Assembly: GCA_944364615.1 (NCBI GenBank)
Contig: CALVWF010000002.1
Coordinates: 124,001 to 188,000 of the forward strand
Reading direction: 5' to 3'
Length of the DNA stretch: 64,000 nucleotides
From: an uncultured Clostridia bacterium
GTDB lineage: Bacteria > Bacillota > Clostridia > Christensenellales > CAG-314
The notes beneath the pieces were generated by a model. The model searched no databases and was not told where the DNA came from. It worked only from the letters and a program-made list of their open reading frames with translations. Positions within the stretch are counted from its first letter, which is position 1. Each line of letters opens with the position of its first letter. This document shows, one piece after another, positions 55,270 to 61,393 of this stretch. Both the position numbers and the translations under genes were made by a program.

Positions 55270-55331
55270 GTAGCGGTAGAGAAATGTTTGCTCTTACAGA
55301 CAACTATAATTTCAAGGAGAACCAAACAAAC

Positions 55332-57356
55332 ATGAAAAAGACAAAAATTTTAAGCCTTGTCGTTGTTCTGGTAATCGCCCTGACGGTAGTGCTGGCTGCT
55401 TGTCAACCTGCTGCTCCCACAGGCGACGCTCTTGCAGACGTAAAGACTGCAGGTAAGGCAGATATCGACAATTACGCCAAGAACTTTACTGAAAGCGATT
55501 ATACGGCAGATGGCTGGACAACGCTTCAGAAGGCAGTTACAGACGGTAAAGCCGCTGTTGACGCTGCTACTACGGCTGCCGACGTGTTTACTGCTGTAAA
55601 CAACGCTAAGAGTGCAATGGACAAAGTTGCCAAGGCTCCCGTAAGCACGCAAACATACGTATCTTACGGTCTTGTACACGGTCAGGGTTATGTCGGCAAA
55701 GCGACGGTTACTATTGATGCCAACGGAGTTGTAACCGCTGCTGCTCTCGACGAAGCTTGCCTTCCCACATACGTAACGGCTGCCGATCCCGTTGAAGGTT
55801 TTACTGTTGCCGACGAAGTTGAAAGTCATGGCGCGAAAGTCACAAAGAACTTCTATAAAACAGTTAAGTTCGGCGGATATACCGCTACTTACGATGTTGC
55901 TACTCACACTTATCTTATCGACGGACTTCCCATGCTCGACAGATTTGCTTCCATAGTTTACGCTCGCGCATGGTTCGAATCGGCCAACACCGACTCTGTT
56001 GTCGTTGTTTCCGATGACAAGACCGAAGACGGAGATGTAATGAACAGCGCAACATTGCTCAAAACTCAGAACGGTTACTGGGGCGAACCCACGGCACCCG
56101 CTCTCGGTTGGGAAGAAAACGCTGTTGCAACTTCTGCTTTCTTTGTAGAAAATTACGAAGCATTCGTTCCTGCTTTCTACCAGAATGGTCCTGGAAACCT
56201 GTTCTACGGACACAGTGCTAACGGTCAGCCTTGGTTCTGGAACGGCGTTAACACAGGCGCTACATGGACAGACATGGAAGACTACATCACATTGCTTGTT
56301 GTTGCTTACGCTCAACCTTCGCAAAGTTTTGCTTACGGTCTCGTTCACGGTAAAGGTTATGTAGGTGAGGCTACAATAGTTCGCACACAGCAAGGCGTTA
56401 TCGTCAGTGCAGGACTGGAAGAAGCATGCCTTCCCACTTACATTGCTGCTGAAGCTGCAATTGTAGACGTTACAACAACTGATACAGCTTACCCCAGCCA
56501 CGGTAGTGAAGTTACAAAGCACTTCTACACAACAGTTAAGTTCGGTGGAAACACATTCACTTACAGCACAACCGAACACGACTACGTTATGGAAGGCACA
56601 ACATTGAAGGCTTGGTTGGAAGACGAAGCTAACGCTATGGTTTACTTCCTGTCTGTATCCAACGATCAGGTTGCAATTGTAAATGCTGAAGGCGAAGACG
56701 ACTTCACAGTAATGACATCTGCTAAGTTGCTCAAGAGTCAGAACGGTTACTGGTCTACACCTTCCGGTTCACAACTCGGTTGGAAGACAAACGTTGAAAA
56801 GACTGTTGAATATGTGATGAACAACGGTTTCGTTCAGGACGAATTTACTACCGACAACAAGGTAGGAAACGTATTCGTTGACGAAAACGGTGTAAGCACG
56901 GGCGCTACATGGACAGACTTCAACGATTACTATCAACTGTTGAAGAAGGCTTACGAAACTCAGGTTTCCATCGGTTCTTTCGATTACTATATCGAAGCCT
57001 GGAAGTCTCACTACGGTGTACAGGTTGCCGTAACTGTTGAAGACGGTGTTATTACCGGTTTGACAATGTTCAACGACGCAGTTACAGGATGGCGTCAGAT
57101 TACTCCCTCCTTCGACCCCAATGGCACTTACGCTGCTGCACAGGCTGAGTTTATTGAAAGCCTCATCGGATTGTCCGTTGAAGAAGTTCTCGACATGCCG
57201 GCATCCTTCACGGTAACCAGCGGAACAAGAGTTCCTTCCGGTTCCGAAGGCGGTGTTGAGGCTGTAGGCGGAAACGAAATCATGACAGGCGCAACACAAT
57301 CCGAAGCACGTTTGCTGCTTGCTATCTGGAGAGCATTGGGCTATCTCAACGCTTGA
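55332..57356 (+). CDS. Multi-FMN-binding (flavinylated) lipoprotein with FIVAR-like domain
   Basis: 674 residues from the ATG at 55332 (AAGGAG upstream; the in-frame ATG at 55284 would precede the signal peptide). The lipobox is VLAAC (Cys24). A helical FIVAR-like segment (about 30-100, DALADVKTAGKADIDNYAKN...) is followed by two similar ~210-residue units opening SYGLVHGQGYVG and AYGLVHGKGYVG. Each closes with TGATWTD (Thr311, Thr526). A third shorter domain ends in MTGATQS (Thr655). The (S/T)GAT threonine is the site that carries covalent FMN in FMN_bind proteins. PplA of Listeria, a lipoprotein with two such domains, serves extracellular electron transfer; a similar role is inferred. It has its own promoter and terminator, with no electron-transfer operon beside it. 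Confidence 0.85.
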   Translation: MKKTKILSLVVVLVIALTVVLAACQPAAPTGDALADVKTAGKADIDNYAKNFTESDYTADGWTTLQKAVTDGKAAVDAATTAADVFTAVNNAKSAMDKVAKAPVSTQTYVSYGLVHGQGYVGKATVTIDANGVVTAAALDEACLPTYVTAADPVEGFTVADEVESHGAKVTKNFYKTVKFGGYTATYDVATHTYLIDGLPMLDRFASIVYARAWFESANTDSVVVVSDDKTEDGDVMNSATLLKTQNGYWGEPTAPALGWEENAVATSAFFVENYEAFVPAFYQNGPGNLFYGHSANGQPWFWNGVNTGATWTDMEDYITLLVVAYAQPSQSFAYGLVHGKGYVGEATIVRTQQGVIVSAGLEEACLPTYIAAEAAIVDVTTTDTAYPSHGSEVTKHFYTTVKFGGNTFTYSTTEHDYVMEGTTLKAWLEDEANAMVYFLSVSNDQVAIVNAEGEDDFTVMTSAKLLKSQNGYWSTPSGSQLGWKTNVEKTVEYVMNNGFVQDEFTTDNKVGNVFVDENGVSTGATWTDFNDYYQLLKKAYETQVSIGSFDYYIEAWKSHYGVQVAVTVEDGVITGLTMFNDAVTGWRQITPSFDPNGTYAAAQAEFIESLIGLSVEEVLDMPASFTVTSGTRVPSGSEGGVEAVGGNEIMTGATQSEARLLLAIWRALGYLNA

Positions 57357-58322: not shown

Positions 58323-59762
58323 TCAGTGCGTGAACAGGAACATTGCAATGAACAGCAAGCCGAGTACGTATGTGGCAACGGAAATTTCCTTAGCCTTGCC
58401 TGTAAACAGGTTGATGAAGATGTAGGAAAGAATACCGAAACCGATACCGAAACTGATGTTGTAGGTAAATACCATCATAGCGATAGTGAGGAAAGAAGGA
58501 ACTGCAACGGAAGGATCCGTCCAGTCAAGTTCTTTGACTCCGTTCATCATCAGTACGCCTACGTAAATAAGAGCGGTTGCCGTTGCGCAATTGGGAACAA
58601 GTTGTGCGATGGGAGCAAGGAACATTGCCACCACGAATCCGAGAGCAACTACCAGAGAAGTAAGACCTGTACGTCCGCCTTCTGCAATTCCTGCGGAAGA
58701 TTCAACGAATGTAGTAACGGTGGATGTACCGCAGATTGCACCGGTGCAGGTTGCAATAGCGTCGGCGAGCATTGCTTTGTTCATGTTGGGAACTTCGCCT
58801 TCTTCTGTAAGCATGTTGCCGCGTGCGCAAGCGCCGTAAAGTGTTCCGAGAGTGTCGAACATATCAACGATACAGAAAGCAAGTGCGCTTGTCACAAGCA
58901 ACAGAATCAAGGAACCAACCGTGTTGCCTTCCTGTGCCAGATAGTGAGAGAAATCAAAGCCTTCGGTAAATACCTTTATCAAGGACTGATCAGCCCATTC
59001 TGCAAATGAGTTCAAGGGGTTGCCCAATGTAATCTTAAGGGCATTTTCTCCTGTGTACATGCCTGTGGTAAGTCCGAGCAGGTAATACAGCAGTGCAGAG
59101 CCGATGATTCCGTAGAAGATTGCGCCCTTGACGTTCTTTTTGGAAAGAATTGCAATCGCAAAAACTCCGATGATAGTTACTACAAGAGGCATTATGTTTG
59201 CCCACGAACCGGACAAAATGTTCATGCTGCCCATCGTAACGCCGGTAGAAGTGCTGGGGATTACGAGTTTGGCATTCTGTGCACCGATAAATGCGATGAA
59301 CAGACCGATACCTGCGGGAATAGCGACACGTACTGCATCGGGGATAGCGTAGAAGATCTTTTTGCGCAGACCGGTTACAGTCAGCAGCACGAAGATTATA
59401 CCGTCGATAAGTACGAATACAAGAGCATTGGCGTAAGTGAAATCCATTGCTTGTACGCAGGTGTAAACGAAAAATGCGTTAAGACCCATACCGCTTGCCT
59501 GAGCGAGAGGCAGTTTTGAAAGCAATCCGATGAGTACCGTACCGATGATTGCCGACAAAGCAGTGGCAATGTAGATAGCGCCGTAACTCAATCCTTCAAT
59601 ACCGCCGCTGAACATTCCTGCGTTTACCATCAGGATGTAAACCATTGCCATGAATGTTGTAATACCGGCAATTACTTCCGTTCTTACATTGGTGCCGTTT
59701 TCACTGAGTTTAAAGACTCTGTCAAACCAGCCACGCTTAGTTTCAGTTGTGTTTTCTGCCAT
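58323..59762 (-). CDS. NCS2 (PbuG/AzgA-type) purine permease
   Basis: 479 residues. The start at 59762 is chosen because GGAGGG lies just before it; an ATG five codons upstream is part of that site. It is a multi-helix transporter with the NCS2 hallmarks of the hypoxanthine/guanine/adenine (AzgA/PbuG) branch: IAGITTFMAMVYILMVN near the N-terminus, GMGLNAFFVYT, a GTSTVTTFVESSAGIAEGGRTG block read in parts as TSTVTTFVES and GRTGLTSLVV, and FDTLGTLYGA. It imports a purine base by proton symport. A phosphoribosyltransferase gene lies upstream on the same strand, fitting purine salvage. It is preceded by a leader with its own short ORF and terminator. Confidence 0.92.
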   Translation of the reverse strand: MAENTTETKRGWFDRVFKLSENGTNVRTEVIAGITTFMAMVYILMVNAGMFSGGIEGLSYGAIYIATALSAIIGTVLIGLLSKLPLAQASGMGLNAFFVYTCVQAMDFTYANALVFVLIDGIIFVLLTVTGLRKKIFYAIPDAVRVAIPAGIGLFIAFIGAQNAKLVIPSTSTGVTMGSMNILSGSWANIMPLVVTIIGVFAIAILSKKNVKGAIFYGIIGSALLYYLLGLTTGMYTGENALKITLGNPLNSFAEWADQSLIKVFTEGFDFSHYLAQEGNTVGSLILLLVTSALAFCIVDMFDTLGTLYGACARGNMLTEEGEVPNMNKAMLADAIATCTGAICGTSTVTTFVESSAGIAEGGRTGLTSLVVALGFVVAMFLAPIAQLVPNCATATALIYVGVLMMNGVKELDWTDPSVAVPSFLTIAMMVFTYNISFGIGFGILSYIFINLFTGKAKEISVATYVLGLLFIAMFLFTH

Positions 59763-59990
59763 GATTTTTCCCTCCATATATATTTTTCATTGGCTTTAAA
59801 CTTCTTTTACAAGGCCATCGGCTGAAATTGAAAAACCCCGTTGCACAGGCTACATGCTACGGGATTGTTAAATTTCAGTATATGGCTCCACGGAAACTGC
59901 AAGAAGGGCTTGCATCTGAAAGGGCTGTATGTAACTAAACAATGTCAGCATCTTCATCGTCAGTCTCCTTAGTTCCCTTGGAAAAAAGAT
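59763..59990 (-). promoter_or_regulatory. Attenuator-like 5' leader of the purine permease gene
   Basis: About 228 nt of leader. It holds a 29-codon ORF (59868-59957). Four bases after its stop begins a hairpin, 59863 down to about 59836 (CCCGTAGCA / TGCAACGGG, one mismatch), followed by five Us. The sequence CTGAAATT at the end of the ORF can pair either with TTTCAG in ORF codons 13-14 or with AATTTCAG just past the U-run, giving mutually exclusive folds. I do not recognise a known purine, PRPP or ppGpp riboswitch core, though one cannot be excluded by eye. Confidence 0.65.
59868..59957 (-). CDS. Putative 29-residue leader peptide upstream of the purine permease
   Basis: ATG with AAGGAG seven bases upstream. 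The peptide begins MKMLTLFSYIQPFQ and ends VSVEPYTEI, followed by TAA. The stop lies a few bases before the leader terminator stem, so a ribosome completing the ORF would cover the 5' arm and favour readthrough. No single amino acid dominates, so it is not a classic amino-acid attenuator. Ribosome arrest by a nascent peptide is one possibility. Function is inferred; a chance ORF is the alternative. Confidence 0.55.
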   Translation of the reverse strand: MKMLTLFSYIQPFQMQALLAVSVEPYTEI

Positions 59991-59996
59991 ATTTCT

Positions 59997-60025
59997 ATCT
60001 TAACTTAAACTTAAAAATATGTCAA
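59997..60025 (-). promoter_or_regulatory. Promoter of the purine permease leader
   Basis: On the - strand: TTGACA (60025-60020), 17-base spacer, TAAGAT (60002-59997). Transcription would start near 59990. Confidence 0.75.
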
Positions 60026-60340: not shown

Positions 60341-60487
60341 GTCATTTCAGACAATCGTAGGTATACGCAAGAAAAGGTCAATGGGAAACACACGGGAGAA
60401 ACGAAAAAAAGGTGTACCTTTCATACACCTTTTTTCGTTGCGACGCAAACGTTCGCATTGACTGAATGGCTAGGGTAGCAGGATTTG
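60341..60487. repeat. Direct repeat copy 1: truncated tRNA-Gln 3' end plus downstream terminator region
   Basis: About 147 bases nearly identical to 60531-60677 at a 190-base offset, with about eight differences. It contains the last 21 bases of the tRNA-Gln gene (60467-60487), then diverges exactly where the remaining tRNA should continue. Its terminator (GGTGTA / TACACC at 60411-60429) is still foldable. Confidence 0.88.
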
Positions 60488-60530: not shown

Positions 60531-60677
60531 ATCATTTCAGACAGTCATAGGTACACGCAAGAAAAGGTCAATGGGAAATACACGGGAGAAACGAAAAAAA
60601 GGTGTACTTTTCGTACACCTTTTTTCGTTGCGACGCAAACGTTCGCATTGACCGAATGGCTAGGGTAGCAGGATTTG
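60531..60677. repeat. Direct repeat copy 2: 3' part of the intact tRNA-Gln and its terminator
   Basis: Matches copy 1 at a 190-base offset. It spans the tRNA-Gln 3' end (CCA, acceptor and part of the T-arm) and the terminator at 60594-60627. Confidence 0.88.
60594..60627 (-). terminator. Terminator of tRNA-Gln
   Basis: Seven-base stem GGTGTAC / GTACACC with a T/A-run on both sides, so it can stop transcription in either direction. It lies just downstream of the tRNA on the - strand. Confidence 0.88.
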
Positions 60678-60732
60678 AACCTGCGAAATGACGGAGTCAG
60701 AATCCGTTGCCTTACCGCTTGGCTATACCCCA
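60657..60732 (-). tRNA. tRNA-Gln (CTG anticodon)
   Basis: 76 nt with encoded CCA. The acceptor is TGGGGTA / TACCCTA (one G-U pair). The D-arm is GCC-AAGCGGTAA-GGC. The anticodon stem ACGGA / TCCGT holds loop TTCTGAC, giving anticodon CTG (reads CAG). The T-arm is GCAGG-TTCAAAT-CCTGC. The variable loop has six bases, one more than usual for this tRNA. Flanked by a strong promoter and a terminator. A 21-base copy of its 3' end lies 190 bases downstream. Confidence 0.95.
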
Positions 60733-60856: not shown

Positions 60857-61393
60857 TTACAGAAGGGGAATAACTCCGAGATAGACTATATCATGTCTTT
60901 CGGCAGCGGGGCCTTCGGCAAGAACAAACGCCTTTTTCCAGATTTCTCCTCCGCTCATTTCTACCAGTTTTTCCAGTCCCTCAAGGCTGTTTCCGGTTGA
61001 AACAACGTCGTCTACAATACACACTTTTTTGCCTTTCATCAATTCGGCGTCGTGTCTGGAAAGGTAAAGTTTTTGTACCGCTCCCGTAGTGATGCTTGAC
61101 TTGATTTCCACTTCAATGCCGTCTTGCATATACAATTTTTTAGACTTACGTGCCACGGCGTAGTAGGGATGTCCCAACTCACGCGCCATTACATGCGTCA
61201 GTTGCAGTCCCTTGCTTTCGGCGGTGATCAGAACGTCGCAACCTTTTACGAGTTTTGCCAGTTCCTTACCGCAGTGCTCTGTCATTACCTGATTGCCGTG
61301 CAGGTTAAAAAATGCAATGTTTACGCCGCTGGGTAACGGAAGAATGGGCAGTTGAGCGGTGTAGCCTTTTAGATCCACTTCAAAGTATTTCAT
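60857..61393 (-). CDS. Type I phosphoribosyltransferase, adenine phosphoribosyltransferase-like
   Basis: 178 residues; AAAGGGAG precedes the start. The PRPP-binding loop is intact as VCIVDDVVSTGNS (about 125-137). An upstream TAESKGLQLTHVMARELGHPYYAVARK block and YLSRHDAELMKGKKV fit the Apt-like branch rather than Hpt or Xpt, but the N-terminus lacks the usual Apt DFP.KGI..RDIT motif. It would convert a purine base plus PRPP to the nucleotide in the cytoplasm. The NCS2 permease lies downstream on the same strand, giving uptake plus salvage, although each has its own promoter. Confidence 0.82.
   Translation of the reverse strand: MKYFEVDLKGYTAQLPILPLPSGVNIAFFNLHGNQVMTEHCGKELAKLVKGCDVLITAESKGLQLTHVMARELGHPYYAVARKSKKLYMQDGIEVEIKSSITTGAVQKLYLSRHDAELMKGKKVCIVDDVVSTGNSLEGLEKLVEMSGGEIWKKAFVLAEGPAAERHDIVYLGVIPLL

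Follow-up and report, generated by a model that had tools for sequence, protein, structure and literature searches.

An attenuator-like leader with a short upstream ORF precedes an AzgA-type purine permease gene in an uncultured Clostridia genus

In the window, the 64-kb piece of DNA analyzed here from the 1.69-Mb genome of a gut Clostridia bacterium (metagenome assembly), an intrinsic terminator stands between the promoter and the start codon of a purine permease gene, and a short ORF ends directly ahead of this terminator. The question raised by this locus is what decides whether the polymerase reaches the permease gene. The tiny ORF and the terminator hairpin probably make this decision, as described below. 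The nearest relative is the congeneric Candidatus Limihabitans stercoravium (G001), and every comparative statement refers to two sequences, those of the window genome and G001. The features of the locus are as follows.

58323..59762, minus strand: NCS2 permease gene of the AzgA/AZG (adenine/guanine) type (Pfam, structure match and alignment of starts)
59831..59866, minus strand: intrinsic terminator, stem AATCCCGT...ACGGGGTT followed by TTTTT (terminator scan)
59957 (ATG) to 59868 (TAA), minus strand: upstream ORF of 29 codons, MKMLTLFSYIQPFQMQALLAVSVEPYTEI (sequence)
59899..59913, minus strand: local hairpin GCAAG-loop-CUUGC within the ORF, found in both genomes with invariant pairs
59886..59983, minus strand: long-range helix predicted to enclose the ORF region, pairing 59983-59965 with about 59906-59886 (minimum free energy, MFE)
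59969-59965, minus strand: Shine-Dalgarno sequence AGGAG of the upstream ORF (sequence)
59982..59987, minus strand: T6 run about 10 nt past the −10 element, at about +4 of the transcript (sequence)
60025..59997, minus strand: sigma-70-type promoter TTGACA-17-TAAGAT (consensus scan, 10/12 matches)
60657-60732, minus strand: tRNA-Gln gene

The permease matches the Pfam family Xan_ur_permease (5.5e-36), and its best match among solved structures is the plant adenine/guanine permease AZG1 (8irl, E 2.1e-63). Translation of the permease likely starts at the ATG at 59762 (MAENT), which is preceded by GGAGG at 59775-59771; the alternative upstream ATG at 59777 is TTG in G001 in the alignment of starts.

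The promoter, the 29-codon ORF with a good ribosome site, and a terminator about four bases past the stop codon had been described in the first-pass annotation, and all three are present as described. The U-run of the terminator occupies 59835-59831 and the stem 59866-59834, and its GC portion (CCCG) begins 4 bases past the ORF stop. Two terminator-like sites are found within the scanned stretch by the terminator scan, against 0.3 expected from shuffles. A consensus scan of the minus strand from 60300 to 59700 gave no promoter-like site besides the one upstream of the terminator. Since the sole promoter-like site precedes the terminator, the permease gene appears to be transcribed through it, and the layout is that of a leader-ORF attenuator: a promoter, a short ORF with a ribosome site, an intrinsic terminator, and no other promoter seen. 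Across 1.23 Mb of the genome, an ATG ORF that has a Shine-Dalgarno sequence and ends near a terminator was found at only 4 of 968 gene starts, so that this layout is not routine there.

The known kinds of leader should be considered. Searched on its minus strand, the segment 59763-59990 gave no Rfam family at the gathering score and no credible match up to an E value of 10. The purine riboswitch model (RF00167) has no match at the gathering score either, in agreement with the earlier reading that no known purine riboswitch is present; the same model was found in five related loci (L006, L011, L027, L049, and L050) as positive controls. The peptide was also correctly said not to be rich in one amino acid: the ORF has no run of codons for a single amino acid as in leader peptides of the trp/his type.

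The leader is conserved in G001, where it aligns over its whole length with 75-76% identity, and the attenuator-like arrangement proposed at first is thus kept in the only congeneric genome. The identity is distributed unevenly. The promoter is identical at 28/29 positions, with the whole 17-nt spacer unchanged. The initial transcribed part (12/17) is followed by a divergent stretch ahead of the ORF Shine-Dalgarno sequence (2/11). From the Shine-Dalgarno sequence to codon 3 of the ORF, 19 of the 21 positions are identical, which would occur with a probability of 0.0015 at the rate of the ORF body (35/60, 58%). The segment from GGAGCC to the terminator is again nearly identical (21/23), and the terminator matches at 28/36 positions, its core stem being invariant and the inner stem being longer in G001. 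The region past the terminator (36/55) leads to a permease ribosome site that is identical throughout (16/16).

The changes in the ORF body should be compared with those in the permease gene. The changes fall on the three codon positions as 7/10/7 in the ORF body and as 66/23/212 in the permease gene. The codon changes of the ORF body comprise 12 nonsynonymous and 1 synonymous, and fourfold sites of the permease genes differ at 116 of 221, indicating that the rate of change in the ORF body is close to that of unconstrained sites. The aligned ORF in G001 has 27 codons, and a 1-nt indel before the stop puts the two ORF ends in different frames, giving VEPYTEI-stop in the window and CGAIY-stop in G001. 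Peptide-level selection on the upstream ORF is not seen in this comparison, and the body appears to drift like neutral sequence. The first-pass annotation had suggested that a purine acts on the ribosome or the nascent chain, and had named synonymous-biased conservation of the ORF as a check. The alignment lends this suggestion no support, because neither a synonymous bias nor a conserved frame before the stop is found. As regards the peptide sequence, this is the lack of ORF conservation in relatives that the annotation had itself listed as a refutation. The purifying selection near the peptide end that marks nascent-peptide arrest of the TnaC/SpeFL/ErmL type is likewise absent between the window and G001.

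The position of the stop codon is kept despite the different frames: in both species the ORF stops no more than about 10 nt from the terminator stem, as expected if position, not sequence, matters. In a simulation of neutral drift, however, an ORF of such length ending near the stem survives in 42% of cases. The openness of the ORF is therefore weak evidence, and the conserved start region is the better evidence. That translation may matter at all is suggested by the conserved Shine-Dalgarno sequence and start codon.

The best-fitting explanation of these observations is a genus-restricted transcription attenuator in which the location of the ribosome on the ORF, not the peptide made, sets terminator read-through, a reading to which we would give a little less than an even chance. 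RNA polymerase would start at the promoter, near 59990, and a ribosome may then start on the 29-codon ORF. The terminator directly behind the ORF would halt transcription unless its hairpin is prevented from forming. Most likely, a ribosome on the last codons or the stop codon would shield the 5′ arm of the terminator, so that the polymerase could pass. Both the effect of translation on termination and its direction are inferred. Read-through would then report how closely the ribosome trails the polymerase, or how long it lingers at the end of the ORF. A shortage of purine or nucleotide as the signal is a guess from the gene controlled.

Work on other systems bears on this step from both sides. 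In Escherichia coli, the ribosome represses terminators almost fully when they lie a few nucleotides past a stop codon, and termination is complete once that distance exceeds about 27-30 nt (PMC4824070). Without a pause site, the first 100 bp are rarely enough for the ribosome to catch up (PMC4824070), and polymerase outruns ribosomes in Bacillus subtilis (PMC7858274). Attenuators with a leader ORF are known in Bacillota, as in bmrB of B. subtilis (PMC4191407). In G001, the ORF stops about 9 nt ahead of the terminator stem, so a ribosome there would mask the stem less, which argues against shielding. The distance from stop codon to terminator was also considered as a sign of uncoupled transcription, but a crude finder gave the same values for the window genome and E. 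coli, and this measure is uninformative.

The RNA pairings of the leader give a mixed picture. The first-pass annotation had noted two mutually exclusive partners for CTGAAATT (59878-59871) at the ORF end. Both exist in the window, i.e., AATTTCAG past the terminator (59829-59822, 8 bp) and TTTCAG (59921-59916, 6 bp), but they are not both conserved: TTTCAG is absent from the G001 ORF, and the two genomes have just 5 bp of the other pairing in common (UGAAA/UUUCA). The pairing of CTGAAATT with AATTTCAG extends the terminator and would form only once the polymerase has passed. No exclusive antiterminator against the AATCCCGT arm is convincingly common to both leaders; direct shielding of the stem by the ribosome would make an antiterminator unnecessary. 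The whole leader folds better than its own shuffles (z −3.1), with a large share coming from the terminator, while the ORF regions folded alone give z −1.7 and −1.6 for the two leaders. The long-range helix is the MFE structure in both genomes though its 5′ arm has diverged. Its cognate arms are in sum 7.1 kcal/mol more stable than swapped arms, a weak test, as 20 of 500 shuffles do equally well and one swapped pair is almost as stable as the cognate one. RNAalifold on the two leaders finds one pair changed on both sides. In the prediction, the ORF AGGAG is paired with CUUCUU at the ORF 3′ end (pairing probability >0.8), and the long-range helix and the GCAAG/CUUGC hairpin are mutually exclusive. 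It is suggestive only that the helix would hide the ORF ribosome site after the end of the ORF has been transcribed, in competition with the hairpin.

The main rival to an attenuator governed by ribosome position is an RNA aptamer of a kind not recognized so far, either an orphan riboswitch or a protein-binding leader, that controls the terminator, with the ORF being incidental or its start segment being part of the fold. We consider it rather unlikely, though it deserves the most attention of the alternatives. Guanine riboswitches often occupy the same position before AzgA-type permease genes of related Clostridia, the diverged 5′ arm pairs with the ORF 3′ end in both species, and GGAGCCATATACTGAAA is invariant though read in different frames, indicating that it is kept as RNA or DNA and not as peptide. 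However, the fold of the ORF region exceeds its shuffles just mildly, and both the single two-sided pair change and the arm-swap result are weak. The leader is also restricted to one genus and, within the 73% of the genome searched, to the permease gene, and a well-spaced, conserved Shine-Dalgarno sequence with an ATG would be coincidental. Control might instead be exerted at the promoter, which seems improbable: a repressor would bind the dyad AAGATA-N4-TATCTT, or transcription would slip on the initial T-run in a UTP-sensitive manner, as reportedly occurs at codBA and pyrBI of E. coli, and the terminator would merely lower expression. The dyad (59982-60002) is perfect and lies over the −10 element and the start, the T6 run doubles as the 3′ half of this dyad (AAGATA-GAAA-TATCTT), and G001 keeps the arms, with the loop GAAA replaced by AACG, as well as the 17-nt spacer. 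The NCS2 leaders of G001, G004, G032, and G039 have a T-run in the corresponding position. A run of 5 to 8 T, about 8-11 nt past the −10 element, is seen in five NCS2 leaders of the family and one leader of another family (59982-59987; L002:861; L109, L107, and L110 upstream of the NCS2 gene; L174 in G144, the other family), against only 1 of the 100 best promoters in 434 kb of the window genome. On the other hand, 1.23 Mb of the genome contain no other copy of the dyad and spacer, which means that there is no regulon, and the T-run was noticed post hoc, not predicted. UTP sensing by the initial T-run was rejected, as promoters with a T-run in other members of the order precede unrelated genes.

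The two remaining explanations are less probable still. A nascent-peptide sensor, in which the leader peptide together with a purine or a similar ligand would hold the ribosome on the last part of the ORF, is very unlikely. The ORF stop adjoins the terminator, and the last codons in the other frame of the window would read FRGAIY-stop, beside FCGAIY-stop in G001, so that an ancestral C-terminus is arguable. The FRGAIY frame, however, lacks a start codon in the window and is separate from the ORF, the C-termini of the two ORFs differ, the codon changes are those given above, and the identity runs on beyond the stop codon. Least probable of all is the absence of regulation, where a small transcript or a chance ORF is followed by a leaky terminator. 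The survival of the ORF under drift and the confinement of the leader to the genus would fit, but purifying selection on the start region and the terminator together, and the lack of a second promoter between the terminator and the permease gene in the scan, speak against it.

Similar leaders were sought elsewhere. DNA, pattern, profile, and covariance-model searches found homologues only in the two congeneric genomes, and none before any other gene in the searched part of the window genome. A covariance-model match in G004 (E 0.003) proved to be the terminator behind an unrelated gene. The AzgA-type genes of related Clostridia often carry the guanine riboswitch at this position, as in the five control loci, and others have short, plain leaders. 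A search of about 100 NCS2 loci, from the order and from outside it, gave no further convincing leader ORF. Two genomes of the same family have similar but incomplete layouts before the permease gene. Both have a promoter, an ORF, and a hairpin, but in G032 the ribosome site of the ORF is poorly spaced and the U-run of the hairpin comes late, and in G039 the ribosome site is good but the hairpin lacks a real U-run. These are leads, not support. The attenuator-like leader is real and lineage-specific, an instance of a familiar kind of switch in a new setting. It is conceivable, though unlikely, that a lineage-specific attenuator responsive to purines or nucleotides replaced the guanine riboswitch before AzgA, acting by ribosome position on an ORF of free sequence or by an undescribed aptamer.

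The leader can be compared with three known systems. The pyrBI leader (pyrL) of E. coli, whose peptide sequence is thought not to matter, likewise combines a T-run near the start, a short ORF, an intrinsic terminator, and a nucleotide-related gene. Its terminator lies inside the ORF, and it relies for sensing on UTP-dependent pausing at a U-rich tract (partly general knowledge, partly PMC4824070), whereas the ORF of the window stops before the stem, no such conserved pause tract is found, and the gene is a purine permease. The bmrB leader of B. subtilis bmrCD, also from Bacillota, has a leader ORF, an intrinsic terminator, and translation-dependent read-through (PMC4191407). In contrast to the leader here, which has no conserved antiterminator and no known link to drugs, the 53-codon bmrB ORF overlaps both the terminator and the antiterminator and senses ribosome-targeting drugs. 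The guanine riboswitch RF00167 is found at this position in related Clostridia, ahead of NCS2 purine permease genes, but the leader does not match it and has an ORF. If translation of an ORF of free sequence sets read-through, purine uptake would here be under a leader-ORF attenuator in a member of the Bacillota, a group in which purine uptake genes usually use the guanine riboswitch and in which tight coupling between ribosome and polymerase has been called into question. If not, the leader merely adds to those of no assigned class, in an uncultured genus.

Several further observations concern the surroundings. In the window genome, a hairpin with a long T-run lies between a promoter and a gene at L145:6300-6345, before an XRE-cupin regulator and a potABCD-like polyamine transport operon, and is possibly another attenuator. 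Some early matches to a promoter with a T-run (L145, pot operon region) were terminators of upstream genes. At 55284-57356 on the plus strand, a putative lipoprotein of 690 aa with internal repeats YGLVHGxGYVGxAT... is encoded, for which Pfam gave no family above the cut-off. The tRNA-Gln gene and a phosphoribosyltransferase gene lie upstream of the permease gene on the same strand. The latter (60857-61393, minus strand, PRK07322 type, annotated as adenine phosphoribosyltransferase) is close to the permease gene, and a similar gene is directly upstream of the NCS2 gene in G028, G031, and G039. The segments 60354-60486 and 60544-60676 are near-identical copies spaced by 190 nt, which end in the 3′ part of tRNA-Gln and both contain the hairpin GGTGTACNTTTCNTACACC followed by a T-run. 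The copy at 60354-60486 holds only the tRNA end fragment and resembles a remnant of a duplication or of an element inserted at the tRNA end.
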